Origin: Candidatus Stygibacter australis
Lineage (GTDB): Bacteria > Cloacimonadota > Cloacimonadia > Cloacimonadales > TCS61
Direction: 5' to 3'
Assembly: GCA_030765845.1 (NCBI GenBank)
Contig: JAVCDJ010000037.1
Span: 1 to 59,469 of the forward strand
DNA: 59,469 nucleotides
Shown here: positions 31,892-56,000 of the stretch, one piece after another
Layout of the letters: every line of letters begins with the position of its first letter
How positions within the stretch are numbered: position 1 is the first letter of the stretch
Notes under the pieces: model-generated
Seen by the model: only the letters and a program-made list of their open reading frames with translations
Databases searched by the model: none
Told to the model about the DNA's origin: nothing
Made by a program: the position numbers and the translations under genes

Positions 31892-31994
31892 AGAAAAATA
31901 GAGAATGATAACCTCGGCAGCAGAAAATAAACTTGTCAGGAAAAAAGGATTGCCAGAAATTTCAGATGAATAAAATTTGCATGCTGGAGGCAAG

Positions 31995-32765
31995 ATGGGA
32001 AGTAGATCTGTGATACTGGTGATACTGCTTATAATAATACTGGCCGGGATAATTTTGTTTGATCAATTGCGGATAGGACGGCTGGAAGACACTTTAAGCA
32101 AGATAATGATACTATCCTACAGTGGAGATTCTCTGGTAGTATATCATCCCCTGAAGCTGGAAGAGAACGAGCTGTTCGTCACGCCTTCATTTGTAGATAA
32201 TTTTACAAAATATAAATCACCTTTCTGGGATGGTATCCGGGGAGATAACAGGAGTTTTCAAAATCTGATCAATGAATATGTACATAATCGGAATCAGGAT
32301 CATTATGGGTGTCCGCGTTCAGGCAAAGGTATCAAGAGAATACATGAAGGTATCGATTTATTTGTTCCGGAAAACACCGAGGTTTATCCCCTGGGAGATT
32401 ATGGGGTAGTGATTGACGTGAGTCATAATCCCAACCATCTGGAATGGGTAGAGGGTGAGAATGAGAAAGGTGAACTGGACAGTATTCAGGTGGAATATGG
32501 CAAGATAGTGAAGGTATTATATCCTGAGGGATTGATCTCGACCTATGTTCATTTGAATAAGGTGAATGTGGATATAGGAGATGAAGTACATGGAGATACA
32601 GTTTTGGGATTAACAGGAGTAACTGGGAATCTGGTGCGCTCGGGCAAGGCATCGCATCTGCATCTGGAATTACGTTATCTGGATGGCAGTTCATTTGATC
32701 CGCGTCACCGGCTTCATTATCGAGGCACATCATTTGCGGATTTTGTGAAGATGTTGAAGATGTGA
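31995..32765 (+). CDS. M23 family metallopeptidase, membrane-anchored
   Basis: 256 aa from ATG 31995, which has GGAGG just upstream. One N-terminal membrane helix (VILVILLIIILAGIILF) anchors it. The LytM domain has HEGIDLF (HxxxD zinc ligands), a conserved STYVHLNKV His and SHLHLELRY (HxH), so all catalytic residues are in place. Family members cut peptide cross-links of peptidoglycan or act in envelope protein maturation. No SH3 or LysM domain. The adjacent DUF1573 gene is also exported, which hints at an envelope role for both. Confidence 0.88.
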   Translation: MGSRSVILVILLIIILAGIILFDQLRIGRLEDTLSKIMILSYSGDSLVVYHPLKLEENELFVTPSFVDNFTKYKSPFWDGIRGDNRSFQNLINEYVHNRNQDHYGCPRSGKGIKRIHEGIDLFVPENTEVYPLGDYGVVIDVSHNPNHLEWVEGENEKGELDSIQVEYGKIVKVLYPEGLISTYVHLNKVNVDIGDEVHGDTVLGLTGVTGNLVRSGKASHLHLELRYLDGSSFDPRHRLHYRGTSFADFVKMLKM

Positions 32766-32831
32766 GTCGTGAGTCGTGAGTCGTGAGACGTGAGACGGGA
32801 GACGGGAGACGGGAGACGGGAGAAGTGAGAA
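32762..32831. repeat. Heptanucleotide tandem repeat (10 units)
   Basis: GTGAGTC x3, GTGAGAC x2, GGGAGAC x3, GGGAGAA and GTGAGAA follow without interruption, starting at the stop codon of the M23 gene. The unit drifts step by step, as expected from slippage. Copy number could vary between strains and would alter the spacing to the next gene. Confidence 0.9.
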
Positions 32832-32847
32832 GATAGGAGTTTTATAA

Positions 32848-33915
32848 ATGAGTAAATTAATTTTGATCGTGATAATGTTGATAAGTGTGGTATTTATTTT
32901 TGCAGAGGCTAAATTTGCTCCGGCATTACGGGAATATGATTTTGGTGAGATCTATGAGAAAGATGGACCGGTGAAATACAGTTTTGAATTTACCAATACC
33001 GGGGATGAGCCATTGCTGCTGATAGACGTTCATGCCGGCTGAGGCTGCACAACACCCAGTTGGTCAACTGGAGATGTTTTACCCGGAGAGAAGGGATTTG
33101 TGATGATAGAATTTGATCCGAAGAATCGGAGCAAAGTATTTCATAAATCAGTGCGGGTAACCACAAATGGTAATCCCCGGGAAGCGGTGTTGCGGATCAA
33201 GGGATATATAATCCCCGATCCTACGAATTTGCGTAAGCGGGTTGGAGATTTACAGATAACCCGGGCGGAATTCAATTTTAGCGAGATTTTGGATACGGAA
33301 ACGAAACTGGATTCGCTAATGATCAAAAATGATGGACCAGCCGAGATGTCATTGAAGTTAGAAGAAGATGAGATCCCCCCAAATATGGAAATAATAATTG
33401 ACCAGCCGGAATTAGGGGTGGGGGAAACCACCTTTATTCATAGTAAAATATGGGGAGATAAAACGGGTAAATATGGTTTCAGCCGGGCGCGGGTGAAGTT
33501 CTGTGATGACAATAATCCCCAGAAGACACTTGGTAATCTTCAGATCACTTGGTCACAAAAAGAGGATTTTGGTGCCTGGACCAATGAACAGAAGTCAGTA
33601 GCACCGGGTTTGAGATTCAAGCAGACAACATATAATTTTGGGGAAGCCAGTTACACTGAAGATATAATCTGCGAATTTTCTTTCAGTAATCGGGGCAAGA
33701 GCGATCTGATCATCAGAGATATTCGGTTGTCAAGCTTTGTGGAGATATTGAGTTATGATGAGAGTGTTCCTGCGGGAGGAGAGGGGAAATTGTCATTTAA
33801 GATCAATCTTGAACGGGCAGTAGGAGATTTTATCAGATATGTGACCGTGATCACGAATTGTCCTACCCAGAGCAGCAAAAGATTGACCATAAAAGGGAAA
33901 GTTATTGACAAATAA
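32848..33915 (+). CDS. DUF1573-type exported protein with in-frame UGA (candidate selenoprotein)
   Basis: Read through TGA 33040-33042 it gives 355 residues. Signal peptide 1-19. A DUF1573/ASH-like beta domain spans about 20-135, and a second related one follows after residue 220. The family consensus is ASCGCTTP-x-W; here the frame reads HAG-UGA-GCTTPSW, so UGA replaces the first conserved Cys and yields Sec-Gly-Cys. CCAGTT-GGTC-AACTGG (33056-33071) forms a hairpin with a GGUC loop starting 19 nt after the UGA, like the E. coli fdhF SECIS loop. AGGAG precedes ATG 32848. Without readthrough only 64 residues remain. The alternative is a recent TGC-to-TGA nonsense mutation. Confidence 0.7.
33056..33071 (+). 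promoter_or_regulatory. Candidate bacterial SECIS hairpin
   Basis: A six-bp perfect stem with a GGTC tetraloop begins 13 nt after the in-frame TGA. AACA (33051-33054) and TGTT (33075-33078) can extend the stem past a small internal loop. Distance from UGA to the apical loop (19 nt) and guanines at the first loop positions fit the usual bacterial SECIS rules. It lies inside coding sequence, as bacterial SECIS elements do. Confidence 0.6.
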
Positions 33916-34536: not shown

Positions 34537-37500
34537 ATGAAAAAGTTGATTATTGCAGTATTACTGGTTTGCGTAGGATTACTAATAGCAGACCCGATTC
34601 CAATTGGAGAAGGCATGGAAACAGGTACCTATCTTCCAATGGAACCTTATTATGGTTACACCTATTCACAGGTAATTTATACCGCAGATGAAATAGGTGG
34701 AGCAGTTGACATCGAGAATGTAGCCTGGCATTTTAATGGAAACAGTGCCTGGGTAGAAGACTGTACAATTTATATGGGACACACAACTCTTGATGAGTTT
34801 GGTGTATATCCGAGCTGGATGCCACTAACAGAACTGACAGAAGTCTGGACTGGTGGATTTTCAGTAATGGATTTTGATCACTGGGTAACAATAGAGCTTC
34901 AGAACATTTTTGCCTATAATGGAACAGATAATCTGGTAATAGCATTAGATGCTAATACCCCGGGTTATCACAGTTCATTGGACGAGTTTTATGGATCTAC
35001 AACAACCCTGAACCGTTCAATTTATTTCTGCAGTGATTCAAATAATCCTGATCCTGCTAATCCTCCTACCGGGACTTACAGAGATGATCCTAATCCTATA
35101 GAAGAAGCTCATCCTACAGACAAGGAAGTAATGAGAGCAGCAGGTGTTCAGCCATACATAGCTAATATCATTCTTAATAATGATGCAGTTATGCCGAGTG
35201 GATTTGTATCTGGAGAAGTTGTTGATTTCGATACCAATGCTCCCATCGAGGGTGCTACTGTATTAGTCGGTAATTTTTCAGGGACAACAGATGCTACGGG
35301 ATTTTATGAAGTCGAAGTAATGGTTGAGGGTACCTATGATGCAATAGCATCAGCATACGGATATTTCAATAGTACCGTTTCAGGCGTAGAAGTAATATTC
35401 GATCAGACAACTACAGTAGATTTTGCTCTGGAAGTATTTGAGACAGCGGGAACAAGCTGTGCAGATCCTTATGTGATAGATGCCTTACCTTTTGTTGAGA
35501 CAGGAATGACCACAGAAGGATTTGGAAATGATTATACCAGCACCATGGCTTGTGCAAGCTATTACATGGGTGGTGATGATTTTGTATTTGCTTATACACC
35601 AGAAGAAAATATGTCGGTAGATATTGCATTAACAAATACAGATACCTATACAGGACTTTTTGTAATCCAGGGATTTGTAGATGATCCAACAGCAGTATGC
35701 GTAGCTCAGGCTGGGGCTTCTGCAGGTAACCCCATGTTAGAAGACGTGATCTTACCAATGGGTGAGACTTATTATATAGTAGTATCAACCTGGCCAGCAC
35801 CATATTTTACTCCCTTTGATATTGCAATAACAGCTAATGAACCACCAACATTTGGAAGTCTGGATGGAACAGTGACAGCACTTGATGGCGGAGCAGCAAT
35901 TGAAGGTGCTGTAGTAACTGCTGGTGGATTTAGCGAAATAACAGATATAAATGGATATTACATGTTCGCAGGTCTGGAAAGCGGTTTATATGATGTATCA
36001 GTAATGGCTGATGGATATTATGGAGCAACTGAGATGGGTGTAGAGATTCTGGAAAATCAGACTACTACAGTTGACTTTGCTCTGGAAGTATTTACAGATA
36101 CTGGTGACACGATTTTGGATCCCATCGTAATTGATGCTTTCCCATATTTCATGTCAGGAGATATTTCTCTTTATACAGATTACAGTACAGGAGCTGGTTT
36201 AGAAGGCTCACGTGCAGGACAGGATATTTTCTACGAGTTCACAGTTACAGAACCATCTATTATGGATCTTCACAGTTGCGGATCAGAATTTGATACATAT
36301 ATGCACTTATATGACAGTGCATATACACGTATTGCCTATGATGATGATGGCTGCAGCAGTTGGGGTTCAGGTAGCACTATGGCTTCATGGATCAATGATG
36401 GTAATGGCTTCTTAGTTCAACCAGGAACCTATTATATCTGTAATGAAGGATATTCATTTGTTGCCGGATATAGATATTTTGAATCTCATTTTGATATATT
36501 GCCACCTCCACCAATGGGAAGCATTGATGGAACAGTGACAGACCTTGTAACCGGCGAACCAATAGTCGGAGCAAATGTGACAATAGACGGTACAACCCTG
36601 ATGACAGATGATATGGGATATTATATGTTAACTCTGGAGTTAGGATTTTATGATATAGCAGTTTCCTTAACTGGTTATAATCCTGATGGAGCTACAGGAG
36701 TGGAAGTGCTTGAAGATCAGACAACTACAGTCGATTTTGCACTTGATCCAATTACAGGTGTAGTATTTGAGCTTACAAGCGATTCCTGGGGATACGAATG
36801 CACATGGAACGTGTGGGATGTAGCGAATAGTGAACTTGTTTGGGCAGCTGATTGGACATTCCCAGGCAATAATATGACAATGACCGTATCAGAAGATCTT
36901 CCTGATGGCAGTTATATAGTATATGTACATGACAGTTATGGAGATGGTGGTACATCAGGTATCGTCAGTAAAGAAGGCGTGGTACTTGTAGAATGGTTAG
37001 GTGGAGATTATGGATATGAAGGTGAATTCCCATTCATCTTAGGACCAATATTATTTGGTGGACTGGAAGGAATAGTAACCGACAACTTTACAGGCAATCC
37101 AATTGACGGAGCCACTATTATGTGTGGTGGATATTCTGGAATGTCAGATGCTACAGGATATTACAATATACCAGATGTTCTGGTAGGTACATATATAGTT
37201 ACATGTGATGTAGCTGGCTATACAGGACAGGAAGCACTGGATGTAGTAATTGCAGAAGATGTAGTAGCAACTCAGGATTTTGCTCTTGATATCATTATGG
37301 CAGAGCCAACTAACCTGGTAGCAACAGTTGACGGATATGATGTAGGACTGGCATGGACAGAACCATATGTTCCACCAACAGATATGCTGCATTGGGATGA
37401 TATGACTAATTTTGATGCTATTGGATTAACCGGTGGCGGAACATTCAGCGTAGCAGTCAGATTCACACCAACAGAACTGGCACCATTTAATGGTTTAGTA

Positions 37501-40500
37501 ATGGATAACGTTACAGTATATATCAACGATCTGCCAACAGCAATGACTTTATATGTATGGACTGGGGAAAATGCAGCTAATGTACTGGTTCAGCAGACAG
37601 TAACTCCAGTAGGACTTGACTGGAATAACTTTGTATTGAATACACCAGTAACAATTGACGCAAGTCAGGAATTATGGATAGGATACGAAACAACCTCAGT
37701 ATCTGGAGCAGAATTTACCTCTGGTTGTGATGGTGGTCCTGCTGTAGCTGGTTTTGGAGATATGATCAGTTTAGACGGTTTAAACTGGGATTCAATGAGT
37801 ATATCCTATGGTCTGGATTACAACTGGAATATCTGGGGTGGAATCGCTGGAGAACCTGGAAGAAACCAGGTATTAGCACGTCCACAGCCATGGCATCCAG
37901 AAGCAATTCAGGTAGATAACAGAGTAGAATTCGCAACAGCCGGATATGGCGAGGTAGCTCGTCCATTTACCGGATCATATAATGTATATAGAGATGACGT
38001 TGTGATAGCAACATTGTCAGAGACAACCTATGATGATCTGGGACTGGCTGCAGGCATATATGAATATTATGTAACTGCAGTATATGATGAAGGTGAATCA
38101 CCAGAAACTAATCATGTAATAGTAGAGGTTGGAATGGTTGACGTATCAGTTGATCCAACTGTAATAAGTGAGACCCTTGATTATGGCTTAACCTCAGATC
38201 ATAATATTTTATTGTCTAATGATGGAGATGCAAACTTCTATTGGGCAGGATCAGTTAATAATGTAGTTCGCTTCAGCGTTCCAGAGATGAAACCACGTCC
38301 AGCAGGAAAGACAAATAATGGTGCTGATATGAATTCTGATCTTATGATGTTTGACGTTCCAGCTTCCCGTGACATGTGGGATCTTCTGGATACATTCACA
38401 ACTGACGTAGTTAGTCAGGCTGGTATTGAATTTGACGGAACCTATTACTACACAGCAGTGTGGAATCTTGATGTTATCAATAAGTTTGACATTGATGGCA
38501 ACTTCATCGAAAGTTTCGCAATTCCAGGCGTTTCAGGCTTAAGAGATCTGGCCTATGATGGAGAATATTTCTATGGTGGAGCAGCCGGAACCGCTTTATG
38601 GCAGATGGATTTTGAAACCCAGACATTGGTATCAACAATCACATCACCTATGGCAGTTCGTGCAATTGCTTATGATGATGAAAGTGATGGATTCTGGGTA
38701 AATAACTGGAGTACAGATATCACCTTAGTAGGCCGTGATGGAAGTATTTTGGATAGTTTCCCATGCTCATTAACATTAAATAGTCTTTATGGCTTAGCTT
38801 ATGATAATTATACAGATGGCGGACCATACGTATATGGATTCAGCCAGGCAGGAAGTGGCTGCGTGATCTCACAGTACAATATCGCAACAGGTGCTGAAAC
38901 CGGTGTTACGCATGATGTACTTTTAGATGTAGGTGCAGCTGGTGATTTAGCTGGTGGAATGTTCACCTCAGCAGATCTCATTCCTGGAACCTTTGTAATT
39001 GGTACACTTAATCAGACTACTTATACAGTGGCAATTTATGAATTAAGTCCGGCATCAACCTGGTTAGATATTGTACCGACTAGTGGAACATTAGCACCAG
39101 GCGAAAGTATCAATATCACAGCCACCTTTAATGCTATTGAACTTCCTGGACTTACTTACTTTGCTGACATAGTATTCACTGATGGTGCAGCAATGGCAGC
39201 AGTAGCTGCTGATCTTACAATAACAGGTAGTATTCCAACAGCAGAGATCACAGTTGATCCTCTGGAATTTGACGTAATGGTACCAGTTGACGGGTTGGCA
39301 GAATATACTTTGAATATTGGTAATCTGGGAGATCTGGATCTGGAATATGATGCAGAGATCATGTATTATGAGGGTCGGTCAGTAGTAGAAGCTTATCCTC
39401 AAAGTGCAGATTACTGGACAGGCTCAACTGATGGAACCAGCTTTACATCAACCAGCATGATCAATGGAGTCAACTTAGAAGATGGCTGGGCTATGTTTGA
39501 TGTTTCTGGAATTCCAGATGGAGCAGTTATAAATAGTGTTGATTGCAATGTATATGTAAATGACGCTTATTATTGCTGGTGGTCAATCACACCATGTACC
39601 CTTGATCCACTGACAACTGATGCAGCAACCTTGAGTGCACATATAATTGCCGGAGAAGGTACAGGAGTTGCATATTCATACAATAATGAAGCCTACACTT
39701 TTGCAACCGGCTGGCACACATATACTCTTGGTACAACAGTAATTGCTGATCTGGAAGCTGCTTTAGCTCAGGACTGGTTTGCCTGTGGTATGACATCACG
39801 TGATAATTCAATTTCATATTGGATAAACATTGATGGCTGGAATGAAGCAAATCCACCATCTCTGACAATAGACTATACTGTTCCAATCAACCCATGGGTA
39901 ACTTTTGGTGGTGACATGATGGTTGATGGAATAGTAGCAGTAGGTGCTGGTGCAGACATGCACACCCTGAACTTTGATGCCGCCGGACTTATGGATGGCG
40001 ACGTAATGATGGGTGAGATCATGATCACCAGTAATGATCTTTATAATACAGAGATCATAGTTCCAGTTACCATGACAGTAGGTGCAGCTTACATGTATGG
40101 AGATGTAACCGGTGACGAAGTAGTAGATGCCTTTGATGCAGCTAACGTACTTCAGTTCACGGTTGGCATGGATCCAGTGGGCGCTCCCTTACCATGGACC
40201 TGGGAATTAATTGCAGGTGACGTTGATGGCAATGGATCTCCTGAAGCCTATGATGCCGCTCTTATCCTTCAGTACGCTGTTGGTATGATCGATATCTTCC
40301 CAATAGAAGCCAGAATAGATTCACCAGTAGCTGATGTAAGCATGACAGTAGAAAATGGCGAACTTGTATTTAGCACAACAGGCGATCTTTATGGATTCAG
40401 CGTGATGACAGAAACTGAATTAATCAGTTTCCAGGCACCAGTGACCGAATATCTTCATGCAGTTAATGGCAATGCAATCGCATTGGCAAGTGCTGAAGCG

Positions 40501-40929
40501 ATCAGTGGTGAATTCCTGCGTATTCCATATGAGAAAATTGCTGAAAGTGGTGAATTTACAATGACCATGACAGTAAATGGTATCAGTAGTGAGAATACAT
40601 ATAATGTAGAGGATTTGGAAGTAGCTCCAGTAGTAAATGCAGTATTGAAAAACTATCCTAATCCGTATAATCCAAACTTAAGCAGAGGAAATGGTATAAC
40701 AATCTCGCTGTCAGTGGCAAATAATAACACACCAGTGACGGTTAGTATTTATAATGTAAAGGGTCAGTTAGTGAACAGCCTTGTAAATGAGACGGTAGCA
40801 AGTGGAATTCACGACTTCGTATGGAGTGGTAAAGACAAGAGCAATCGTCTAGTATCTTCAGGAATATATTTCTACAAAGTGAAGATAGGCGAACTAAATG
40901 AAACCCACAAGATGATAATGCTTAAATAA
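34537..40929 (+). CDS. Giant secreted protein with CarboxypepD-reg, dockerin-like and T9SS sorting domains
   Basis: 2130 aa. Signal peptide 1-18. Four carboxypeptidase-regulatory-like domains (about 221-300, 442-518, 661-738, 843-920) share G-x-V-T, P-I-x-G-A-x-V and D-x-x-G-x-Y-x. Between them lie PPC-like segments. A FN3/galactose-binding-like region follows to about 1200, then a propeller-like stretch (1280-1510), a DNRLRE-like part (1620-1780), and a dockerin-like pair (1852-1925) with loops DVTGDEVVDAFD and DVDGNGSPEAYD. The end (NYPNPYNPN, YNVKGQLVNSL, SGIYFYKVK, MIMLK) is a type IX sorting domain. No enzyme domain is visible. Likely surface scaffold or adhesin whose dockerin may bind cohesin modules of the next two proteins. 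Confidence 0.85.
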   Translation: MKKLIIAVLLVCVGLLIADPIPIGEGMETGTYLPMEPYYGYTYSQVIYTADEIGGAVDIENVAWHFNGNSAWVEDCTIYMGHTTLDEFGVYPSWMPLTELTEVWTGGFSVMDFDHWVTIELQNIFAYNGTDNLVIALDANTPGYHSSLDEFYGSTTTLNRSIYFCSDSNNPDPANPPTGTYRDDPNPIEEAHPTDKEVMRAAGVQPYIANIILNNDAVMPSGFVSGEVVDFDTNAPIEGATVLVGNFSGTTDATGFYEVEVMVEGTYDAIASAYGYFNSTVSGVEVIFDQTTTVDFALEVFETAGTSCADPYVIDALPFVETGMTTEGFGNDYTSTMACASYYMGGDDFVFAYTPEENMSVDIALTNTDTYTGLFVIQGFVDDPTAVCVAQAGASAGNPMLEDVILPMGETYYIVVSTWPAPYFTPFDIAITANEPPTFGSLDGTVTALDGGAAIEGAVVTAGGFSEITDINGYYMFAGLESGLYDVSVMADGYYGATEMGVEILENQTTTVDFALEVFTDTGDTILDPIVIDAFPYFMSGDISLYTDYSTGAGLEGSRAGQDIFYEFTVTEPSIMDLHSCGSEFDTYMHLYDSAYTRIAYDDDGCSSWGSGSTMASWINDGNGFLVQPGTYYICNEGYSFVAGYRYFESHFDILPPPPMGSIDGTVTDLVTGEPIVGANVTIDGTTLMTDDMGYYMLTLELGFYDIAVSLTGYNPDGATGVEVLEDQTTTVDFALDPITGVVFELTSDSWGYECTWNVWDVANSELVWAADWTFPGNNMTMTVSEDLPDGSYIVYVHDSYGDGGTSGIVSKEGVVLVEWLGGDYGYEGEFPFILGPILFGGLEGIVTDNFTGNPIDGATIMCGGYSGMSDATGYYNIPDVLVGTYIVTCDVAGYTGQEALDVVIAEDVVATQDFALDIIMAEPTNLVATVDGYDVGLAWTEPYVPPTDMLHWDDMTNFDAIGLTGGGTFSVAVRFTPTELAPFNGLVMDNVTVYINDLPTAMTLYVWTGENAANVLVQQTVTPVGLDWNNFVLNTPVTIDASQELWIGYETTSVSGAEFTSGCDGGPAVAGFGDMISLDGLNWDSMSISYGLDYNWNIWGGIAGEPGRNQVLARPQPWHPEAIQVDNRVEFATAGYGEVARPFTGSYNVYRDDVVIATLSETTYDDLGLAAGIYEYYVTAVYDEGESPETNHVIVEVGMVDVSVDPTVISETLDYGLTSDHNILLSNDGDANFYWAGSVNNVVRFSVPEMKPRPAGKTNNGADMNSDLMMFDVPASRDMWDLLDTFTTDVVSQAGIEFDGTYYYTAVWNLDVINKFDIDGNFIESFAIPGVSGLRDLAYDGEYFYGGAAGTALWQMDFETQTLVSTITSPMAVRAIAYDDESDGFWVNNWSTDITLVGRDGSILDSFPCSLTLNSLYGLAYDNYTDGGPYVYGFSQAGSGCVISQYNIATGAETGVTHDVLLDVGAAGDLAGGMFTSADLIPGTFVIGTLNQTTYTVAIYELSPASTWLDIVPTSGTLAPGESINITATFNAIELPGLTYFADIVFTDGAAMAAVAADLTITGSIPTAEITVDPLEFDVMVPVDGLAEYTLNIGNLGDLDLEYDAEIMYYEGRSVVEAYPQSADYWTGSTDGTSFTSTSMINGVNLEDGWAMFDVSGIPDGAVINSVDCNVYVNDAYYCWWSITPCTLDPLTTDAATLSAHIIAGEGTGVAYSYNNEAYTFATGWHTYTLGTTVIADLEAALAQDWFACGMTSRDNSISYWINIDGWNEANPPSLTIDYTVPINPWVTFGGDMMVDGIVAVGAGADMHTLNFDAAGLMDGDVMMGEIMITSNDLYNTEIIVPVTMTVGAAYMYGDVTGDEVVDAFDAANVLQFTVGMDPVGAPLPWTWELIAGDVDGNGSPEAYDAALILQYAVGMIDIFPIEARIDSPVADVSMTVENGELVFSTTGDLYGFSVMTETELISFQAPVTEYLHAVNGNAIALASAEAISGEFLRIPYEKIAESGEFTMTMTVNGISSENTYNVEDLEVAPVVNAVLKNYPNPYNPNLSRGNGITISLSVANNNTPVTVSIYNVKGQLVNSLVNETVASGIHDFVWSGKDKSNRLVSSGIYFYKVKIGELNETHKMIMLK

Positions 40930-41048: not shown

Positions 41049-44000
41049 ATGAAGCGAGTTATAGTTTTTAGTTTTCTTTTATTAGCAATAATGTTTATTT
41101 ATGGTCAATTCGAGAATACCATAATAACAGTATCAGATGCAATGGTAGAAGAGGGCGACACATTATGGATTGAAGTAAGCACGACAGAAGTATTAGATGA
41201 ATGGGATGTGATAGCATTCCAGTTTGATCTGGCATTTGACGAAAGTTTGATTCAGTATGAGGGCGTGGCACTGGGAGAGATGCCATTACCTGCAAACCTG
41301 ATAGCCAATGAATATGAGCCAGGGATATTACGTACAGCATATGCAAACTATTTGAATATCTCGGGAACAGGAACTCTTGTAATAATAGAATTTATTGCCA
41401 TCGGAGAAGGTGTAACAAGCTTAGACATTTATGATTTCAAGTATAACTCAACATTCCTTTTGGATGAAAATCAAATTGACGGTAACGTAACAGTATTGGT
41501 ACCTAATCCATTTTCAGATGTAATCGTCAGTGTTGATTCACCAGTAGCAGGCTTGGTAGAGAACTTTGATCTGGCAATTCTAACCAGTGAACTAACCACA
41601 GAGATGGGTGGTATATCCTTCCAGTTTGAGCTGATATATGACCCCGAAATGATGACATTTACAGGGAATTATGCATTAGGCGACGTGCCAAATCCGGGAA
41701 ATTTGATCGCAAATGAAACGGGACCTGGCGTAGTAGTAGTAGCTTATGCGAATGTGATGCCGATTACCGGTGTTGGTTCTCTATGTACTTTGGAATTTGA
41801 ACCAGCAGGTGAAGAGGGAGAGTCAATTGTTAGTCTGGATTATTTCAGATATAATTCAACTAATTTATTAAATCTGGAATCCGGTACAGTTTATTTTATG
41901 GGTGGACCACAGGAAATAGAAGTAAATAAAGATATGGTACCTGGCTGGAACTGGTTTTCTTTGAATGTAGCCGGTGAAGACATGACAGCCAACGGGGTTT
42001 TGGCTTCAATTGGTGAGGATGCTTCCAATATTAAAAGCCAGACCCAGAGTGCAATTTATTATGCAGGAATGGGCTGGTATGGCAGCCTCACATCAATTAA
42101 TAATTTAACATTTTATAAAATTGAAGTAGAAAACAGCACTACATTAACATATACGGGAATTCCAGTAGATCTGGCAGCGACCACATATAGTTTAACAAGT
42201 GGCTGGAACTGGATATCCTATGCACCACAACAGGCAGAGGATATTAATTATGCACTGGAGACAGTAGTGAATGGTTCCAACATCAAAAGTCAAACCCAGA
42301 GTGCGATATATTATACGGGTATGGGCTGGTATGGTAGTTTGACAACGCTTAATCCTTTGGGTGGTTATATGCTTCAGATGAATGCACCAGAACTCTTAAA
42401 TTATCCTGAACCTCCAGCAATGTCAGCAGAAAATTTAGATAACAATTCTGTGGAAACATTAAGTCAAAACCGTCAATTACGGGACGTTCCAGCGTGGAGT
42501 GTAAATCCTGCTGCTTATGAATATAATGGGTTTATTTGGGGTCAAGTCCTGGTAGACGGGGTTTCAGCAGATGATGTAAATGACCTGGTAGCAGTATTTG
42601 TAGGTGATGAATGCCGTGGATTAGCTCAGCAGAGTGATAATAGCGTTCAGAATTTCGATCCAGTGCCTTTTGGTTATATTGCTTTTATGCCACAGGTATA
42701 TAGTAATGTAACGGCAGGAGAGACCTTAACATTTAAATATTATGATGCCAGTGCAGATATGGAATATGACGTAATAGGAGATTTAGCCTTTACTGCTGAC
42801 ATGGTAGTAGGCGGGGGCTTTGATCCTTATATATTTGAGGTAAGTGCAACACCACCTCCAGAACCTCATTTTGAGACAGTCTGGGCAGGGGATCCATTAT
42901 ACCCGCATAATATAAGTGTATTAACAGCAACAATAAATGGAACAGCATTAGAAGCAGGAGATGAAGTAGCAGTCTTTGATGTGGATGGGAATGATGATGA
43001 AATATGCGTGGGAGTTACCACGGTTGCAGGAGCAGCACCTTATGTAGTGTCAGCTTCCTGGGATAGTTATATGACACCAACCATAGTTGACGGATATGTA
43101 ATAGGACATCCAGTTATCTACAGAATTTGGGATGCAAGTGCTGAAGTCGAGTTGACAGAGATAATTTCAACCCCAATTCCTACTTGGACAGGATTGTATG
43201 TATTCCAGGGAAATACGCAGGTATTGCTGGAAGCAAGTGGAGGAAATTTACCACCCGTAGCAGATGCTGGAGAAGACCAGATGGTGATTGAAGGTGATCT
43301 TGTTCAGTTAGATGGAAGTGCATCTTATGATCCTGATGGAGAGGAAAGTAGAGAAATACCAGACTGGAGCGTAAATCCAGCTGCTTATGAATATAATGGA
43401 TTTATCTGGGGTCAAGTCCTGGTAGACGGGGTTTCAGCAGATGATGTAAATGATCTGGTAGCAGTATTTGTAGGTGATGAATGCCGTGGATTAGCTCAGC
43501 AGAGTGATAATAGCGTTCAGAATTTTGATCCAGTGCCTTTTGGCTATATAGCCTTTATGCCACAGGTATATAGTAATGTAACGGCAGGAGAGACCTTAAC
43601 ATTTAAATATTATGATGCCAGTGCAGATATGGAATATGACGTAATAGGAGATTTAGCTTTTACTGCTGACATGGTAGTAGGTGGAGGTTTTGCTCCTTAT
43701 ATATTTGAGGTATCAACTGTGGTAACTTCAGATCTTGATTTTCTCTGGACAGCACCTGATGGAGTGATATTGAGTGATCCCACTGCGGTTCAACCAACAT
43801 TCACCGCGCCTGATGTGACAGAAACTACTCTTTATACTATATCTTTAATTGTTAGTGATGGAGAAGCCTGGAGTGATGCCGATGAAGTAGTTATTACTGT
43901 AGAGAATGGTAATATTGCTCCAATAGCTGATGCTGGTGAAGATCAGATGGTGATTGAAGGAGACCTGGTTCAATTGGATGGAACAGCGTCTTACGATCCT

Positions 44001-47000
44001 GATGCTCCTATCGAAAGCAGAGATGTACCTGATTGGAGTATTAATCCACCAGATTTTGAATATAGTGGAACAATCTGGGGAGTAGTAAACGTAGATGGTA
44101 CTTTATCAGTAGATGTAAATGATATGATTGGTGTATTTTTTGGTGAAGAATGCCGAGGAATAGCACAACAAAGTGACGGTTCCGTACAGGATTACACAGC
44201 TTTGCCATTTGGTCATGTAGCCTTTATGCCAATGGTGTACAGCAATGTAACAGCAGGTGAGACATTAACATTTAAATATTACGATGCCAGCGCAGATATG
44301 ATCTATGATGTGGAAGGAACAGTGGATTTTGTGGCAAATATGACAATTGGTAATGGATTTGATCCCTTTATATTTACCGTGACCACCATATTTATCCCTG
44401 ATCTGGATTTTGTTTGGACGGCACCTGATGGTATTGAATTGAATGATGTAACATCAGCAATACCAACATTTACAGCTCCCGAAATTGACGAAGAAACTCC
44501 TTATACCTTCTCTTTGATAGTTAGTGATGGAGAAGCCTGGAGTGAAGCTGATGAAGTTGTGATCACAGTTCAGAATGGCAACGAAGCACCAGTGATAGAA
44601 TTACCACCAAACTTTACGTTTGATGAAGATGGCAGCCTGGGAGTAGATTTTGCTGCTGAAGGTTATATCTGGGATCCGGATTTGAATGATCTCACATTGA
44701 CCGTGGAAGGTAATGTTAATATTAATGTAGAAATAACGGGTGGAGCTGTAATATTCTCAGCATCTGAGAATTGGTACGGTTCAGAGATTATGACATTCAC
44801 AGTTGACGACAATGAGGCAAGACTTATAGCTAGTGATGATGTGGAAGTGATAGTGAATCCAGTGAACGATCCTCCAGTATTTACCTATGCAGAGCCAGAG
44901 ATAGGCTTTGATGAAGATGAAGATATAATGGTAGATTTTTCCAGCTATATCAGTGATGTAGATGAAGATGAATTAGTAATGTATCTGGATGGATTGGATG
45001 ATATAACAGGTGATATTGAAGGATTTGTAATAACCTTTAGTGCTGCTGCTAACTGGAATGGAACCGATGCAATAATCATCGGAGTTTCAGATCAGCAAGG
45101 CAGAGAAGTTGCAGAAGTAAATGTAGATATCGTGGTATTACCAGTAAATGATGCTCCGGTAATTGACTTACCTGAGATGCAGGAAATTGATGAAGATGGC
45201 AGTCTGGTGCTTGATATTACTCCTTTCGTGAGTGATATTGACGGAGACGTGCTGGAAATTTCCGATCTCTCAGTATATGATAATGGCGAATGGGAATTAG
45301 CATATTATGGACTTATCGCATATATAACTCCTGCAGCAGATTATTATGTAACTTGTGATGTGGAGATCACAATAACTGATAACGCAGGCCGTGAGACAGC
45401 AAGCGATATGTTCCAATTAGTAGTGAACCCTGTAAATGATGCACCATATCTGATCATGGAACTTCCAGATCTGGAATTTGATGAAGATTTTGAAGAGACA
45501 TGGCTTGATCTGAGTGAATATTTTGGTGATGTAGATGAAGATGTATTAACCTATACGGCAGATTATAATGCTGCAGAAATTATGATTTCATTTACAGACA
45601 ACCAGATGTATCTTTATAGTGTAGAGAACTGGTCAGGAACAGCAACAGTTACAGTAACGGCTTCAGATAATGTTGGTAGAGATATAATCGCAGATACATT
45701 TGAGATTCTGGTCAATGCTGTGAATGATGAACCTTATTTGATCATGGAATTAGTAGATTTGGAATATTACGAAGATTTCGAAGAAACATCATTTGATTTG
45801 AATGAATATTTTGCAGATGATGATAATGTATTAACATTTTCGGCAGAATATAATGCAGAAGAGATCATGGTTACTATAGCAGATAACATGATGTATCTGG
45901 GCAGTGTAGAAAACTGGTATGGATTGGCAGAGGTGACAATTACAGCTTCCGATAATATGGATAGGGCAATAATCACAGACACATTTGAAGTACTGGTGAT
46001 TAGCGTAAATGATGCACCTTACTTATATAATATGATAGATGATATGGAAATGGAAGAGGATTTTGAATCTGAGACATTGATTCTTTCTGATTATTTTACT
46101 GACCCTGATGGAGATTTGAATAACTACTGGGCAGTATGGGAAGAAGGAACTGTCAATATTGAAATCATTGAGGTTGAATTATCTATAACCTCAGTTTTAG
46201 ACTGGAATGGTCAAATTGATGTAACCGTGTATGTGGAAGACAATATGGGTGATCAGGCAGATTTCACATTCCAAATTACAGTACTTCCTGTGAATGATGC
46301 ACCAGAAATAGATCTTCCGGAAATGTTAAGTTTTGCTGAAGATGGTATGCTGGAAGAAGATTTTAGTGTTTATATTGAAGATGTGGAAGAAGATGCACTG
46401 TTATTGACATTTGACGGTAATGAAAACGTAATTGTGGAAATAACCGATTTAATGGTGACTTTTAGTGCAATAGAAAACTGGAATGGCAGTGAAGAAATTA
46501 ATTTTGCTGTTTATGATTTACCGGAAGGCAGACTGATGGCAGAAGATATGGTCATTGTCGAGGTAACTTCAGTTAATGATGATCCAATAGCAATGCCAGG
46601 CGGTCCTTATGGAGCCGAGGCGGATGCAGAGGGATTTGCAGCGATCATGCTTGATGGCAGTGGATCATATGATATTGATGGTGAGATAGTATCCTGGGTC
46701 TGGAACTGGGAAGGTGGTTCAGGTGAAGGAGAAACATTTGCAGCCATATTTGCGATAGGTGAAACTCCAGTGGAATTAACAGTAACAGATAACGAGGGTG
46801 GAATCGGAACTGAAACCACGATAGTGAATGTTACTGAACTCGGTAATACACCTCCTATTGCTGAACCAGATATGTATAGTGTATTTGAAGATGAAGTTCT
46901 GATGGATAATGTGCTTGCAAATGACCAGGATCCTGATCAATATCCAGAGCCTTTAACTGCTGAATTAGTGGCAGATGTAAGCAATGGTGTATTGGAATTA

Positions 47001-50000
47001 CTGGGAGATGGCAGCTTCACATATACCCCTGCAGCGAACTGGAATGGTGAAGACATGTTCAGTTATCGGGCTTATGATGGAATGGCATATAGTTCAGAGA
47101 CAGAAGTAGCAATTACAGTAATGCCGGTTAATGATGCACCTGAGATGGTGATGCAGCCGGAAGATATTAATCTGGCAGAAGATTTTGAGCCATACGAATT
47201 CAGTTTAGTCGGATATTTCAATGATATTGATAATGAAGTACTGGATTATGTAGTTAATAATAATGTAGAAGAAATTGCGATTGCTGATATGGGTGATGGC
47301 GTATATGAAATTACTCCAATTGCAAACTGGAATGGTGAAAGCTATGTGGGAGTAACCGTAACAGATGGTGAATATGATGTAGAAAGCAGTTTCGTGGTAT
47401 ATGTGGAAGCTGTGAATGATCCTCCTTATGTTTACAATGAGATTCCTGATATGGAACTTGATGAGGATTTTGAGTCCGTAGTATTAACATTATCAGATTA
47501 TTTCATGGATGTAGATAATGATATACTTGGCTACTGGCTTGAATATGATCTGGAAGCCGTAGTAATTGAAATTGCCAATGATGAATTGACTTTATCATCA
47601 ATAATGGACTGGAATGGTGAACTTGATATTACAGTCATCGCTTATGATGAATGGTACCCGCAAGAAGATGTATTCCATCTGGTTGTGAATCCTGTGAATG
47701 ATGCACCAACGATTGATTTGCCTGAGATGTTAAGTTTTGATGAAGATGGGATGCTGGAAGCAGATTTCATGGACTACATTGGTGATATTGACGGAGACGT
47801 ATTAGCATTAACCGTAGAAGGCGGGACGGAAGTGGCAGCGTCCATTGAGGGTTATATAGTAACCTTCACAGCCAGCGAGAACTGGTTTGGCGAGGAAGTT
47901 CTTACCTTTACAATCGATGATGCAATGGGAAGACTTACAGCCAGTGATGATGTGATCATTTCTGTGGGATCGGTTAACGATAACCCCGTAGCTATGCCCG
48001 GCGGACCCTACAATGGACAGGCTAATACCGAGGGTTATGCAGAGATAGAGCTTGATGGCAGTGGATCTTATGATATTGATGGTGAGATAATGAGCTGGGA
48101 ATGGAGCTGGGAAGGTGGCTATGGAACAGGAGAAACCTTACTGGCGGAATTTCCGGCCGGAGAAACCATTGTTACTTTAACTGTGATGGATAATGAACAG
48201 GGCGTTGATGAAGAGACAACAACTGTCAATGTAAGTGAATATGTTAACATACCTCCGATTGCCGAGCCTGATATGTTCACCTTAGATGAAGATACATACG
48301 AATTTACAGGTAATGTACTGGTTAATGATTATGATCCTGATGAATATCCTGAACCATATTTAACTATGGAAGTAGTAACATCTCCTTCGCATGGATTGAT
48401 GGGTTGGGATGAATACGGGAGTTTTCTTTATTGGAGCCTAGAGCCTGACTTCAATGGCGAAGACATGTTCACTTATCGGGCTTATGATGGAGCGGCATAT
48501 AGTCAAGTGGTAGAAGTGACATTTACAATAATGCCTGTAAATGATCCACCTGAGATGGTGATGCAGCCCGAAGATATCAATCTGGCAGAAGATTTTGAGC
48601 CCTACGAATTCAGTTTAGTCGGATATTTCAATGATGTTGATAATGACGTACTGGAATATGCAGTTGATTATAATATTGAAGAGATTGAGATTGCTGATCT
48701 GGGTAATGGCGTCTTTGAAATTACTCCAATCGCAGACTGGAATGGTGAAAGCCTTGTAGGAGTAATCGTAACAGACGGTGAATATGAAGTAGAAAGCAGT
48801 TTCATGGTATATGTGGAAGCTGTAAATGATGCCCCAGAGCTGGTAATGCAGCCTGACGATATATATCTGGCAGAAGATTTTGAGCCATACGAATTTAGTT
48901 TAGCAGGATATTTCAGTGATATTGATAACGAAGTGCTGGAATATGCAGTAGATTTTAATGCCGAAGAAATTGAGATTGCTGATCTGGGTAATGGCATTTT
49001 TGAAATCACTTCTTTGGAAAACTGGAATGGTGAAAGCTATGTGGGAGTAACCGTAACAGATGGTGAATATGAAGTAATGAGTAATTTCATGGTATATGTA
49101 TCATCAGTAAATGATGAGCCAGTCGCCGAGGCAAACGGACCATATTATGAACAGGCAGATGAAGAAGGGAATGCTGAAATAACGTTAGATGGCAGCGGTT
49201 CTTACGACATCGATGGTGAAATTGCAGCCTGGGATTGGAGCTGGGAAGGCGGTAGCGTCAGTGGTGAGATGCCTATGGCAGTTTTTGCTACTGGTGTATT
49301 TGAAGTAATGCTGACAGTAACTGATAATGAAGGTGGAATAGGCACAGATATAGCAACTGTCACAGTATCAGGCTATGAAAACATGGTACCTGTTGCTGAA
49401 GCAGATAGTTTTGAAGGTGAAGAAGATACTTCCATCTCTGGCAATGTTCTCTATAATGATGTAGATCCAGATGAATATCCGGAAGCAATGACAGCTGATC
49501 TGATCACAGATGTAAGCTGGGGAGTTCTGGCGCTTTCAGCAAATGGAGACTTTGTATATATGCCTAATGAGAACTGGAATGGAGATGACAGTTTTGAGTA
49601 CAGGGCATTTGATGGAATAGATTATAGTGAACCAGTAATGGTAGCATTAACCGTAATCCCCGTAAATGATATGCCATATCAGACAGGGGATCTGGTAGAT
49701 ATCTACCTGCTGGAAGATTTTGAGCCATATCAACTTGATCTAACAGGATATTTTGGAGATGTGGAAGAAGATGAATTAATTTATGAATATACTTTCACAC
49801 CAGAAGAAATCGTATTAGTATTTGATCAAAGCGCCATGATAGAAATTCAGTCAGTAGAAAACTGGAATGGAGAAAGCTGGGTAGGTGTAGCCGTGAGTGA
49901 TGGTGAATATACGATAGATACCAGCTTCACAGTTTATGTGGAATCAATAAATGATGAGCCAGTAGCCGAGGCTAATGGACCTTATTACAGTCAGGCAGAT

Positions 50001-53000
50001 GAAGAAGGGAATGCTGAAGTAATGTTAGACGGCAGCGGTTCTTACGACATCGATGGTGAAATAGTAGCCTGGGATTGGAGCTGGGAAGGTGGTAGCGTCA
50101 GTGGTGAGATGCCAATGGCAGTTTTTGCAACTGGTGTATTTGAGGTAATGCTGACAGTAACTGATGATGAAGGTGGATTTGGAACTGATCTAGCAACCGT
50201 CACAGTATCAGGCTATGAAAACATGGCCCCTGTAGCTGAAGCAGATAGCTTTGAAGGTGAAGAAGATACTTCCATCTCTGGCAATGTTCTATATAATGAT
50301 ATTGATCCAGACGAATATCCGGAAGCAATGACAGCTGATCTGATCACAGATGTAAGCTGGGGAGCTCTGGCGCTTTCTGCAAATGGAGACTTTACATATA
50401 TGCCAAATGAGAACTGGAATGGAGATGACAGCTTTGAATACAGGGCATTTGATGGAATAGATTATAGTGAACCAGTAATGGTTGCCTTAACCGTGATTTC
50501 AGTAAATGATATACCATATCAGACAGGAGATCTGGTAGATATCTACCTAATGGAAGATTTTGAGCCATATCAACTTGATCTAACAGGATATTTTGGAGAT
50601 GTGGAAGAAGATGAATTAATTTATGAATATACTTTCACACCAGAAGAAATCGTAATAGTATTTGATCAAAGCGCCATGATAGAAATTCAATCAGTAGAGA
50701 ACTGGAATGGAGAAAGCTGGGTAGGTGTAGCCGTGAGTGATGGTGAATATACGATAGATACCAGCTTCATGGTTTATGTAGAATCAGTTAATGATGATCC
50801 AGTTATCGAATTGCCAGACAGCTTTACAATGGACGAAGCAGTACCATTTGAAGTAGATTTTGCAGAATTTACCAGTGATTTTGATGAAGATGTACTGGAA
50901 CTGACTGTAAGTGGCAATGAATATATCAATGTGTTGATAGAAGGATTGAATGTAACCTTTGATTCTCCCAGCTGGTACGGTGAAGAATTATTGACCTTCA
51001 CGATAAATGACAATATGGGAAGAGCTATCGATACTGATGATGTGTTATTGATAGTAAGACCGGCATTATTTGAAGCAGAGATCACAGTAGGTTCAGCAAC
51101 CGTTTTAGAGGATGAACTTTTCACAATAAGCGTAAGCACAACAGAATTGTACGATTACTGGAATGTGATCAGTTTTGAATTTGATATAAATTATGATGCA
51201 GAATCATACGAATATGTAGGATACGAGGCAGGTAATGTGCCTAATCCTAATGCGATGCTGCTGGTGAATAATAGTGCCCCGGGAGTGCTTGCAGTGGCTT
51301 ATGCTGATGCAATAGTAATGTCCGGAATCGGAGACCTTGTAATATTTGAATTTATGGCAGTTAATGCAGGATTAAGTGAGATCAATGCAGTAGATTTCCA
51401 TTATAATTCAACCGAGATATTTAATGTAATACAGGGTATGGTGGAAGTGATTGATGTAAATCATCCACCAGTTGCTGATGCCGGAATGGATCAAAGCCCA
51501 TATGAGCTGGAACCCGTTATGCTGGATGGAACAGCTTCATATGATCCTGACGGACAGGATCTGGATTATGAATGGATAGTTCCAGATGGTATCGAATTAG
51601 ACGATCCCATGAGTGCAACACCAGGCTTTATAGCCCCGGAAGTTATTGCAGACGAGGAATTTGTATTTACCTTAAACGTAAGTGATGGTGAATATACAGA
51701 TAGTGATGAAGTAATAATTACAGTATTGAATATCAATCATCCTCCGGTAGCAGATGCAGGAGAAGATCAGATCGTTGAAGAAGGTAATTTCGTTCAATTA
51801 GATGGATCGGGATCATTTGATCCAGATGGCATTGTATTCAGAGATGTACCAGACTGGATGATAAATCCACCTGATTATGAATATAGTGGATTTATCTGGG
51901 GAATGCTGATGCTTAATGATGTACCAGGTGATGATGTAAATGACATGATTGGAGTATTTGTAGGAGACGAATGCCGTGGAATCGCCCAGCAGAGTGATAA
52001 CAGTGTACAGGATTATACAGAGCCATTTGGTCATATAGCCTTTATGCCACAGGTTTTCAGCAATGTGACAAGTGGTGAGACATTAACATTCAAATTATAT
52101 GATGCCAGTGCAGGAATGATCTATGATATAGATGAAACTCTGGACTTTGTAGCTGATATGACTGTGGGAGATGGTAATGATCCATTTATTTTCACGGTCA
52201 ATGAAGAACAGCCTACAGGTCTGGAATACAGTTGGATAGTGCCAGCAGGTATTTTCCTTGAGAACGCTGACGGTCCTAATCCCACATTCATTGCTCCTGC
52301 AGTAAATGAAGATACAGATTTTGTGATAACTTTAGAGGTATCTGATGGTGAATATACTGACACTGATGAAGTGATGATCACTGTAATGGATGCTGAGATA
52401 CCGGAAATAATTGCAGAAATTACAGTAACTTCAGGAGTTGCTGAGCCAGGTGAATCGGTAAACATTGATGTTCTTACAACTTATATTGACCCATTATGGA
52501 GTGTATTCAGTTATGAATTCTGGTTAGAATATAATGATGCTGAATTGAGTCTTGATGGCTGGTCACTTGATGGCACAATTGTAAATCCTGATGGTGAATT
52601 AGAAGTTATTTTTGAACGTGGTGTAGTAAACATAAAATTCGTAAGCCAGGTAAGTTCCGGTGGAAGGGAATATATCCCAATCGAAGGTGCAGGTAGTTTG
52701 ATCAACCTGGAATTTACATCTCTCACAGGTGGTCAGTCTCCATTAGAAGTTTATGATTTCACTTTTAACTCTGTGGAGGTTGGAGTGATCAACCAGGGTG
52801 TGATCAATAACAATGGTCCAACTGTACTGATTCCAATTCCCTTACAGACAGTATTTGAGGATTTTGGATCATTTACACTTGATTTAGATGGCTATTTCAT
52901 TGATCTTGATGAAGGTGATGAATTAACCTATATAAATATAGAATCAGGAGATGGCATTGAATGGGGCTTACTGGATAATGTATTAACGATAAATTCTGTT

Positions 53001-56000
53001 GATAACTTTAATGGTACTATTCCAATGTCAGTAACAGCCTGGGATGGTTATACTGATTCGTTAACAGTAACTTCAGAATTTGATATTGTAGTTACACCAG
53101 TGAACGATGTTCCGGTGATAGATCTGCCTGAGATGTACAGCTTTGCAGAAGATGGTGAACTGATAGTAGATTTTGCACCATTTATCAGTGACGTGGATGG
53201 AGATGGATTGACATTAAGCGTAACGGGTAATGAAAATATCACTGCTGTAATAACTGGTACAATGGTAACTTTTGGAGCCCTTGAGAATTACTTTGGAAAT
53301 GAGACATTGACCTTTGCAGTTGATGACGGTGTAGATCGCGTGACAGCTACCGATGATATTTTGATTGAAGTAACCTCAGTAAATGATCTTCCAGTTGCAG
53401 ATGCAGGTGTGCCTATAAATGCTATGGCAGGTCCAGAGGGTATTGCTCTGATAACTTTAAATGGAAGCGGTTCTTATGATGTTGATGGTGAAATAATTGA
53501 ACATTACTGGAGCTGGGATGGTGGAGAAGCCTACGGTGAGAATCCACAGATAGAGCTTGCACTTGGCAACTACACTATTTCATTGTTGGTCACTGATAAT
53601 GAGGGTGGTACAGACAGCGACAATGTTCAAGCATCTGTGGCTCCATATAGTGGAACAACTCCAATTGCTTATCCAGATAATTATGAGGTAGATGAAGACA
53701 TGGTATTGATCGTATCTGCTGCTGAAGGAATTCTGGCAAATGATATTGATGATGGATATCCTGAGCCACTTACTGCTTTGATGATTGAAGAACCAACAGT
53801 AGGTACCTTAATCTATAATTCAGACGACTGGGATGGCAGCTTTGAATACAGTGCACCGGCTAACTGGTATGGAATAGTGAGCTTCAGTTATGTAGCTTTT
53901 GATGGAGGAATCTTCTCAGATCCTACTGAGGTGACAATTATCGTGAACAGCGTAAATGATCTACCAGTAGCTGATGCAGGTGGTCCTTACGAAGCAGTAG
54001 CTGAAGTTAATGGCGAGGCAATTGTGACATTATCCGGTTCAGGAACTGATGTTGATGGTGAAATAGTTCTTTATGAATGGTATTATAATGACGAAATGAT
54101 AGGATCCGGATCTGTAATTGATTATGGATTTGGAGTTGGAGACCATGAAGTAACTTTGATAGTAACCGATGATGAAGGCGGTACTGGAGAAGATATAGCA
54201 ACTGTGATCGTAAGTGAATATATCAATATTATACCAGTTGCTGTTGATGATTATTACTCAGTATATGAAGATGATGTACTGGTAGTAGATGCCGGGGCCG
54301 GTGTTTTGATCAATGATTATGATCCAGATGAATATCCCGAAATACTAACTTGTGTATTAGTAGAGCAAAGAGATTTCAACCTGATGGAAGATGGTTCATT
54401 TGAATATACACCTGCACCTGACTTCAATGGTTCAGTGAATTTTGAATATTATGTAACTGACGGTGAAGCGGTTTCTAATCTTGCAACGATCTATATTGAT
54501 GTAATGCCAGTAAATGATCCACCAGTAATAGAGCTTCCAGAAGAATTCACATTCCTGGAAGATGAAAGTCTGGAATTAGATTTCTCAGAATACATTAGCG
54601 ATATTGACAGTGAATTTTTGACATTGTCAGTTTCCGGTAATATAATGGTGCTGGTAGCTATTGAAGAATATATGGTGACAATATCAGCAGAAAGTGACTG
54701 GTATGGCAATGAGACATTGAGTTTCACGATCAGTGATAATGAAGCAAGGTTGTTTGATAGTGATGATGTGATAATTAATGTAACTGCAGTAAATGATGCT
54801 CCAGTTATAAATGAATATTTGCCCGTAGAAACAGATATCACCATTTATGATGATGCAATAATAGATTTCTATGTGGATGCAGTAGATATCGATAGTGATC
54901 TAGAATACAGCTGGACTTTCAATGGTGAATTTATGCCTATTATGGGTAATATCTTTACCCCGGAATTTACTGAAGAGGGTGATTACGTTATTGTAGTAGA
55001 GATCACTGATGGTGAATATCCTGTGATGATCACCTGGTCAGTACACTATCTATTAGCTCCTGACTGGGTAGTAGTTACCTATGATAACTTTACTAATGCC
55101 CATGGTTATGTAACAGTTGATGGTTTATCTGCAGATATAGGTGACATGATAGGTGCCTTTGTGGATGGAGAATGCCGTGGAATGGGTACAGTAAATGGAT
55201 CATCAAGAGTTAATTTCCAAATTTATGGAGATATAGTAGAAGTAGTAAACTTCAAGTTCTGGGATCTGGAAACAGATAGTATTTATGATCTGGAGTACTT
55301 TACACAGACTTATCCAGGTGGAAATATAGGATCAGTACCAAATCCATTACCTCTGGCAGTTACTACTGGAGAGGGACCGGGCTGGGTTCCAGTTATTTAC
55401 ACAAATAGCACCATTGTATATGCACTTGTAACTATCGAAGGAGTAGATGCTGAAGAAGGAGATATTGTTGCAGCTTTTGTAGGAGATGAATGTAGAGCAG
55501 TAACTCAAGTACAATTATTGACCCGTGAAGCAATTGCTTCTCTGGTAGTACAGGGTGAGATTGTCGAGACAGTTCATTTCAGAATCTGGGACAGCAGCGA
55601 AGATATAATCTATAATGTTGCTACAACAATCCAGTCAAATCCAGGAGGTGTAGTAGGATATCCACCAGATGAGATATTGCTTGATGGATCAAACTTATCT
55701 GATGTAACACAGACCTTAGATCTCAATGGGGGCTGGAATCTAGTATCATTATATGTCAGACCAGTAGATATGAGTGTGGAAACAATATTTGCACCGATCA
55801 TGGAAAACCTGATGAAAGTGAAAGACATTTACAGCAGTTATGATCCATCCTTACCTTCAGTATATAATACACTTCAGGAACTTGAAGATGGTTCAGGATA
55901 TTATGTAAAAGTAAGTGCAGTATCTGTACTTGATGTTACAGGATCTATATTGGATCCAACACAAACTCAAATTGATCTTAGTGCTGGCTGGAATCTGGCA

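Follow-up and report, generated by a model that had tools for sequence, protein, structure and literature searches.

A probable exported selenoprotein of the OS_HP2 (DUF1573) family and its relatives in Cloacimonadota

The window analyzed here is the whole 59,469-nucleotide stretch of contig JAVCDJ010000037.1 from Candidatus Stygibacter australis, an uncultured anaerobe whose genome is a 3.8-Mb draft in the phylum Cloacimonadota. A DUF1573 gene in the window is interrupted in frame by a TGA, which is very probably read as selenocysteine (Sec, U). The gene, its parts and its neighbors are as follows.

31977..32765, + strand: upstream M23 peptidase gene, ending in TGA
32836..32840, + strand: AGGAG, ribosome-binding-site-like by sequence reading
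32848..33915, + strand: putative Sec-containing DUF1573 (OS_HP2-type) gene, 355 codons, ATG at 32848 to TAA at 33913-33915
32848..32910, + strand: predicted signal peptide, residues 1-21 (MSKLILIVIMLISVVFIFAEA), with Lys3, then a hydrophobic run to AEA; residues 2-17 are helical in the structure model
32929..33207, + strand: first DUF1573/ASH (PapD-like Ig) domain, bearing U65, from the domain search and structure model
33040..33042, + strand: UGA, predicted Sec codon, U65 of the U-G-C motif, from the frame, the motif and homologue comparison
33046-33048, + strand: Cys67, second residue of the U-G-C motif, from the sequence
33056..33071, + strand: predicted SECIS hairpin CCAGTT-GGTC-AACTGG, 6-bp stem, 19 nt after the UGA
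33062-33065, + strand: apical loop GGUC (GGTC) of the hairpin, from the sequence
33619..33903, + strand: last DUF1573/ASH domain, without a Sec/Cys motif, from the domain search and structure model
34537..40929, + strand: downstream giant secreted protein of 2130 residues with a C-terminal sorting-type tail
41049-56837: second giant secreted protein of 5262 residues with a C-terminal sorting-type tail, rich in repeated domains

The TGA at 33040-33042 is codon 65 and the only internal stop codon in the frame. It lies in the context GCC GGC TGA GGC TGC ACA ACA CCC (A-G-U-G-C-T-T-P). Beyond the TGA, the frame has no stop in 289 codons, whereas the two alternative frames have 24 and 25. The dN/dS ratios on the 3′ side of the UGA are 0.12 and 0.19 against the relatives L018 and L019, respectively, and those on the 5′ side are 0.29 and 0.27. 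These values indicate that purifying selection acts on the sequence downstream of the UGA.

The host genome carries the components for Sec decoding. The tRNA-Sec gene scores 59.9 bits, above the gathering score, and is also called as tRNA-SeC by ARAGORN. SelA, SelB and SelD are matched at 538, 278 and 362 bits, respectively. The selD gene has an in-frame TGA of its own (L105, G000:C64:29051-29971), suggesting that SelD is probably a selenoprotein too. The selB gene is split into two frames in the host assembly by one base missing after AAG CC (L001 1471-1480, G000:C228). Since most relatives, among them the congeneric G089, encode SelB in a single full-length ORF, this frameshift is likely an assembly error or a recent lesion. 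A Cloacimonetes-type tRNA-Sec has been reported (PMC5330540). An exported Cys-rich protein, possibly DsbD-N-like and ending in GCGGCMHPCDE, is encoded directly after the tRNA-Sec gene (L009 1026-1478).

When 125 genomes of the phylum were searched with the protein, 34 matches were obtained in 30 of them. A TGA lies inside 33 of these matches, the exception being a fragment that starts after the site. A single UGA occurs within this motif in each of the 33 homologues covering the site, from 29 genomes; it gives U-G-C in 32 of them and C-G-U in one, and a Cys/Cys version was found in none. Homologues in Bacteroidota have C-G-C at this site. The nearest named relative, Ca. Stygibacter frigidus, shares 81% identity over the protein, and some homologues are only about 28-30% identical. 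When Sec is written as Cys, the residues invariant across the 33 homologues are N50, V61, U/C65, G66, C/U67, T68, S73, N93, R94, K100 and G119. Tandem pairs of these genes occur in four genomes (L023, L025, L034/L098 and L037), sometimes one with and one without a rhodanese domain. Within Cloacimonadota, Sec is used without exception in this family, with one natural Sec/Cys swap in the motif, and both are among the new observations here.

The recurrence of the UGA bears on whether it is a true stop, in which case the gene would be a truncated pseudogene or a Cys gene with a sequencing error from TGC to TGA. This explanation would fit a frame that is intact but for a single stop, as well as the origin of the sequence from a metagenome assembly in which selB, at least, also has a frame error. 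However, the same UGA is conserved in independent genomes across genera and families of the phylum, and the low dN/dS downstream, the covarying hairpin described below and the Sec machinery also argue against a stop. This explanation is refuted by the conservation, and its probability is practically nil.

Matches to tRNA-Sec of at least 52 bits are found in 23 of the 29 genomes with a Sec-DUF1573 gene, as against 38 of the 96 genomes without one (counted by hand; Fisher p = 0.0002, kinship uncorrected). The match is absent in six gene-bearing genomes, five of which are 61-92% complete, while the sixth is in 680 contigs. In the large family f2, where tRNA-Sec matches never exceed 47.5 bits, no Sec-DUF1573 gene is among the matches.

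The frame is open through the UGA in all relatives, which could also result from a changed code, with UGA read as an ordinary amino acid, or from plain readthrough. TGA is, however, the normal stop of the pyrH, tsf and M23 genes in the window, indicating that the genetic code is unchanged. In addition, the UGA stands where the family CGC motif has its first Cys, the hairpin is conserved, and selA, selB, selC and selD are present. The code-change reading was rejected on the basis of the stops, the hairpin and the machinery, and non-Sec decoding by either route is highly improbable.

The SECIS of E. coli fdhF has a GGUC apical loop. The hairpin in the window resembles it as a bacterial SECIS right after the UGA with the same loop, whereas the conserved stem of the window type is short (5-6 bp). 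Among 31 aligned sequences, the GGUC loop is invariant, the upper five pairs are standard pairs in every sequence, and three of these five are changed on both sides (A-U to G-C, U-A to C-G and U-A to A-U). The covariation score was reached by none of 500 shuffles, and every slid control scored lower. Several of the paired changes alter the encoded amino acid on one strand of the stem but are synonymous on the opposite strand, as in Trp-Ser TGG-TCA to Arg-Ser AGG-TCT, suggesting that selection acts on RNA pairing and not on the protein alone. We also built a covariance model from which the window and the three relatives nearest to it were excluded. This model finds the window hairpin at 52.3 bits, and across the phylum it detects 33 sites at 46 bits or more, the next match being only 22 bits. 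The hairpin is not a chance occurrence, since UGA and hairpin recur together in 33 genes of 29 genomes and three stem pairs covary. No Rfam family matches the locus, as would be expected of a bacterial SECIS that has not been curated.

A pattern scan flags the hairpin as terminator-like. An intrinsic terminator would nevertheless be hard to reconcile with its position inside a conserved coding frame, the invariance of its loop and its spacing of 19 nt from the UGA, which is fixed except in the motif-swapped L044. The terminator reading was rejected, and its likelihood can be regarded as negligible. In L044 (genome G056, C287, − strand), the motif is C-G-U, with Sec at the second position, and the same hairpin follows at 13 nt. 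This shift suggests that both motif sites matter, and the natural swap with an unchanged hairpin at 13 nt instead of 19 nt bears on SECIS spacing. Two rhodanese-like repeats without a catalytic Cys follow in L044.

Taken from sequence comparisons, decoding of the UGA at codon 65 as Sec is very well supported. The initial annotation, made from the DNA alone, had described an otherwise intact 355-codon frame with one TGA in place of a conserved Cys and a GGUC-loop hairpin directly after it, and had named the checks by which a selenoprotein gene could be recognized. Its description of the frame holds. The selA, selB, selC and selD genes it pointed to are all in the genome, albeit with the split selB; homologues carry UGA in the phylum and Cys in Bacteroidota; a model trained outside the window clade recovers the hairpin, which is conserved with covariation; and no further inactivating mutation lies downstream in the window copy. 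The selenoprotein reading is borne out by the machinery, the conserved UGA, the covarying hairpin and the Bacteroidota CGC.

The family, on the other hand, had been taken as one without known selenoproteins, and this part of the initial annotation does not stand. The NCBIfam model NF041425 (OS_HP2), characterized by a U-G-C motif within a DUF1573 domain, recognizes the window protein, which has the same domain and the same motif, at 105.2 bits against a cut-off of 100. Single domains of the protein alone fall below the cut-off. The model matches all 33 relatives (E 0.001), and the general DUF1573 match of the window protein is 153 bits. The founding protein of OS_HP2 reportedly came from an Olavius symbiont in the 2007 selenoproteome survey. 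The GOS survey gives pfam07610 with a UxC motif in two Sec and 354 Cys sequences (PMC2398784), and two reviews list DUF1573 UGC as a selenoprotein (PMC9312934, PMC13188914). The family is OS_HP2/NF041425 (DUF1573/PF07610, UGC motif), on record since the 2007-2008 selenoproteome surveys, and is not new as a selenoprotein family, judging from the published motif and the score above the cut-off. We hold with high confidence that the window gene encodes an exported, Sec-decoded protein of the OS_HP2 type; this confidence covers identity, not function.

The OS_HP2 model covers a single 98-residue domain, whereas the Cloacimonadota proteins run to about 355 residues and include at least two recognized DUF1573/ASH domains. 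They also have no Cys form in the phylum and mostly occur with rhodanese; none of these features is mentioned in the available parts of the OS_HP2 descriptions. NF041425 matches in stop-free Cloacimonadota proteins were considered as Cys versions and rejected; each is either a second domain encoded by one of these same genes or a weak match to part of a long protein. In the literature search, no paper was found that treats Cloacimonadota and selenoproteins together. DUF1573 and rhodanese were found named together only in the two reviews, where the available text gives them as separate selenoproteins (PMC9312934, PMC13188914). Relative to searchable papers, the phylum-wide conservation and the rhodanese link in most relatives are new. 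They confirm across a phylum a selenoprotein family for which the GOS survey had listed no more than two Sec sequences. Since stop-based gene calling splits UGA genes, Sec-DUF1573 genes are likely mis-annotated in these genomes.

A structure model was obtained from a four-sequence alignment. Ig-like domains are confidently predicted at about 23-122 and 255-352, and the middle part has low confidence. The model places Sec65 in the first domain, in a loop joining two strands and two residues before Cys67, with a block pLDDT of 84-88 around the site. Foldseek matches are the ASH/PapD-like domains of HYDIN and CEP192, including the HYDIN PapD-like domain 2e6j with a TM of 0.78 by target length. 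A PDB sequence search with the window protein gave no match. The model supports a PapD/ASH Ig-like β sandwich for the first and last domains. The likeness to HYDIN/ASH domains lies in the Ig-like fold, in sequence and structure matches; in eukaryotes, the proteins bearing these domains serve as scaffolds of cilia or centrosomes.

The neighborhood of the gene was compared in 21 loci, several of them on short contigs. An M23 peptidase gene lies upstream in seven, so the adjoining peptidase pointed out in the initial annotation is real and conserved there, and a very large secreted protein is encoded beside the Sec gene in 13. Between the M23 and Sec genes in the window lies a short tandem repeat of gtgagtc / gggagac units (32766-32830). 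Short CxC motifs are able to mimic disulfide isomerases. These neighbors, the motif and the lack of a rhodanese in the window clade would suit a Sec protein for general disulfide exchange or isomerization acting on exported proteins such as the giant secreted neighbors, rather than for sulfur transfer. However, large sorting-tail proteins are common in Cloacimonadota genomes, which makes the linkage to the giant neighbors weak, and the rhodanese association across three families points elsewhere. A role in disulfide exchange is a serious possibility, short of an even chance.

The rhodanese association should be noted in detail. A Pfam rhodanese domain is found C-terminal to the DUF1573 part in 18 of the 33 proteins. 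The loci with such a fusion are as follows.

L022, L025-L027, L029, L030, L032-L037, L039, L042, L098: C-terminal rhodanese fused to Sec-DUF1573

In three class-level relatives (L096, L102 and L103), a separate rhodanese of 145-146 residues with a lipobox-like signal, a predicted lipoprotein, starts directly downstream, next to or slightly overlapping the end of the Sec gene. Counting fusions and neighbors together, rhodanese accompanies 21 of the 33 genes, in three families. That some lineages have a fusion and others an adjacent gene argues that rhodanese and the Sec-DUF1573 protein work together. Most of the fused rhodaneses keep the normal Cys (CKSGxRS), and a few have lost the catalytic Cys (L023 18-1478, L025 1501-2916). 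The models rhodanese_LYCAU NF041203 and TsoB NF045694, which describe selenoproteins with a rhodanese-like domain, match the rhodanese part of 17-18 relatives. In their published motifs (CxU; UxxxxU), Sec is in the rhodanese/DsbD protein itself, whereas here it is predicted in the DUF1573 domain. In the subclade that the window gene forms with the three relatives closest to it (L017-L020), rhodanese is neither fused nor adjacent.

These observations suggest that the protein would most likely serve in the envelope as an exported selenol/thiol protein that acts on persulfide or disulfide. The envelope redox role put forward in the initial annotation is in this sense plausible, though rhodanese gives a better hint of function than the peptidase does. 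In the proposed mechanism, Sec65 would be inserted at the UGA under the guidance of the SECIS hairpin 19 nt downstream, and the protein would then be exported. Sec65 and Cys67 would form a reversible selenenylsulfide pair exchanging electrons or sulfane sulfur with an envelope persulfide or disulfide partner. The partner may be the fused or adjacent exported rhodanese in most relatives; in the window clade, a different thiol or sulfur protein, likewise exported, may take this part in trans. We propose this sulfur-relay role tentatively, at about the same odds as general disulfide exchange; the window gene without a fused or adjacent rhodanese and the few fused rhodaneses without a catalytic Cys count against it. 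A more specific form, in which Cloacimonadota possess an obligately selenium-dependent envelope sulfur relay, is somewhat less likely. There, the exported Sec-Gly-Cys ASH protein and a fused or lipoprotein rhodanese would reduce or pass on sulfane sulfur, and the system would be lost, not converted to Cys, upon loss of the Sec machinery. With these findings, an unnamed DUF can be tested as an envelope redox protein whose concrete partner would be rhodanese.

CxC pairs can also bind soft metals. The U-G-C motif might accordingly bind a metal or metalloid (Hg, As, Se or Cu) in the envelope with no redox turnover, and metal-related selenoproteins, such as one for mercuric transport, appear in the same survey (PMC9312934). 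No metal-transport neighbors were recognized in the loci examined, however, and the rhodanese link points to sulfur, making metal binding quite unlikely.

With regard to sulfur metabolism in the host, exported rhodaneses are encoded elsewhere in the genome (L107, L108; G000:C277:8230-11601), beside a YeeE/YedE-like sulfur transporter. A signal-peptide rhodanese in a sulfur gene cluster has been described for Ca. Stygibacter, with selenium unmentioned (PMC8542988). In one lipoprotein of the G000:C277 rhodanese cluster, Thr replaces the catalytic Cys.
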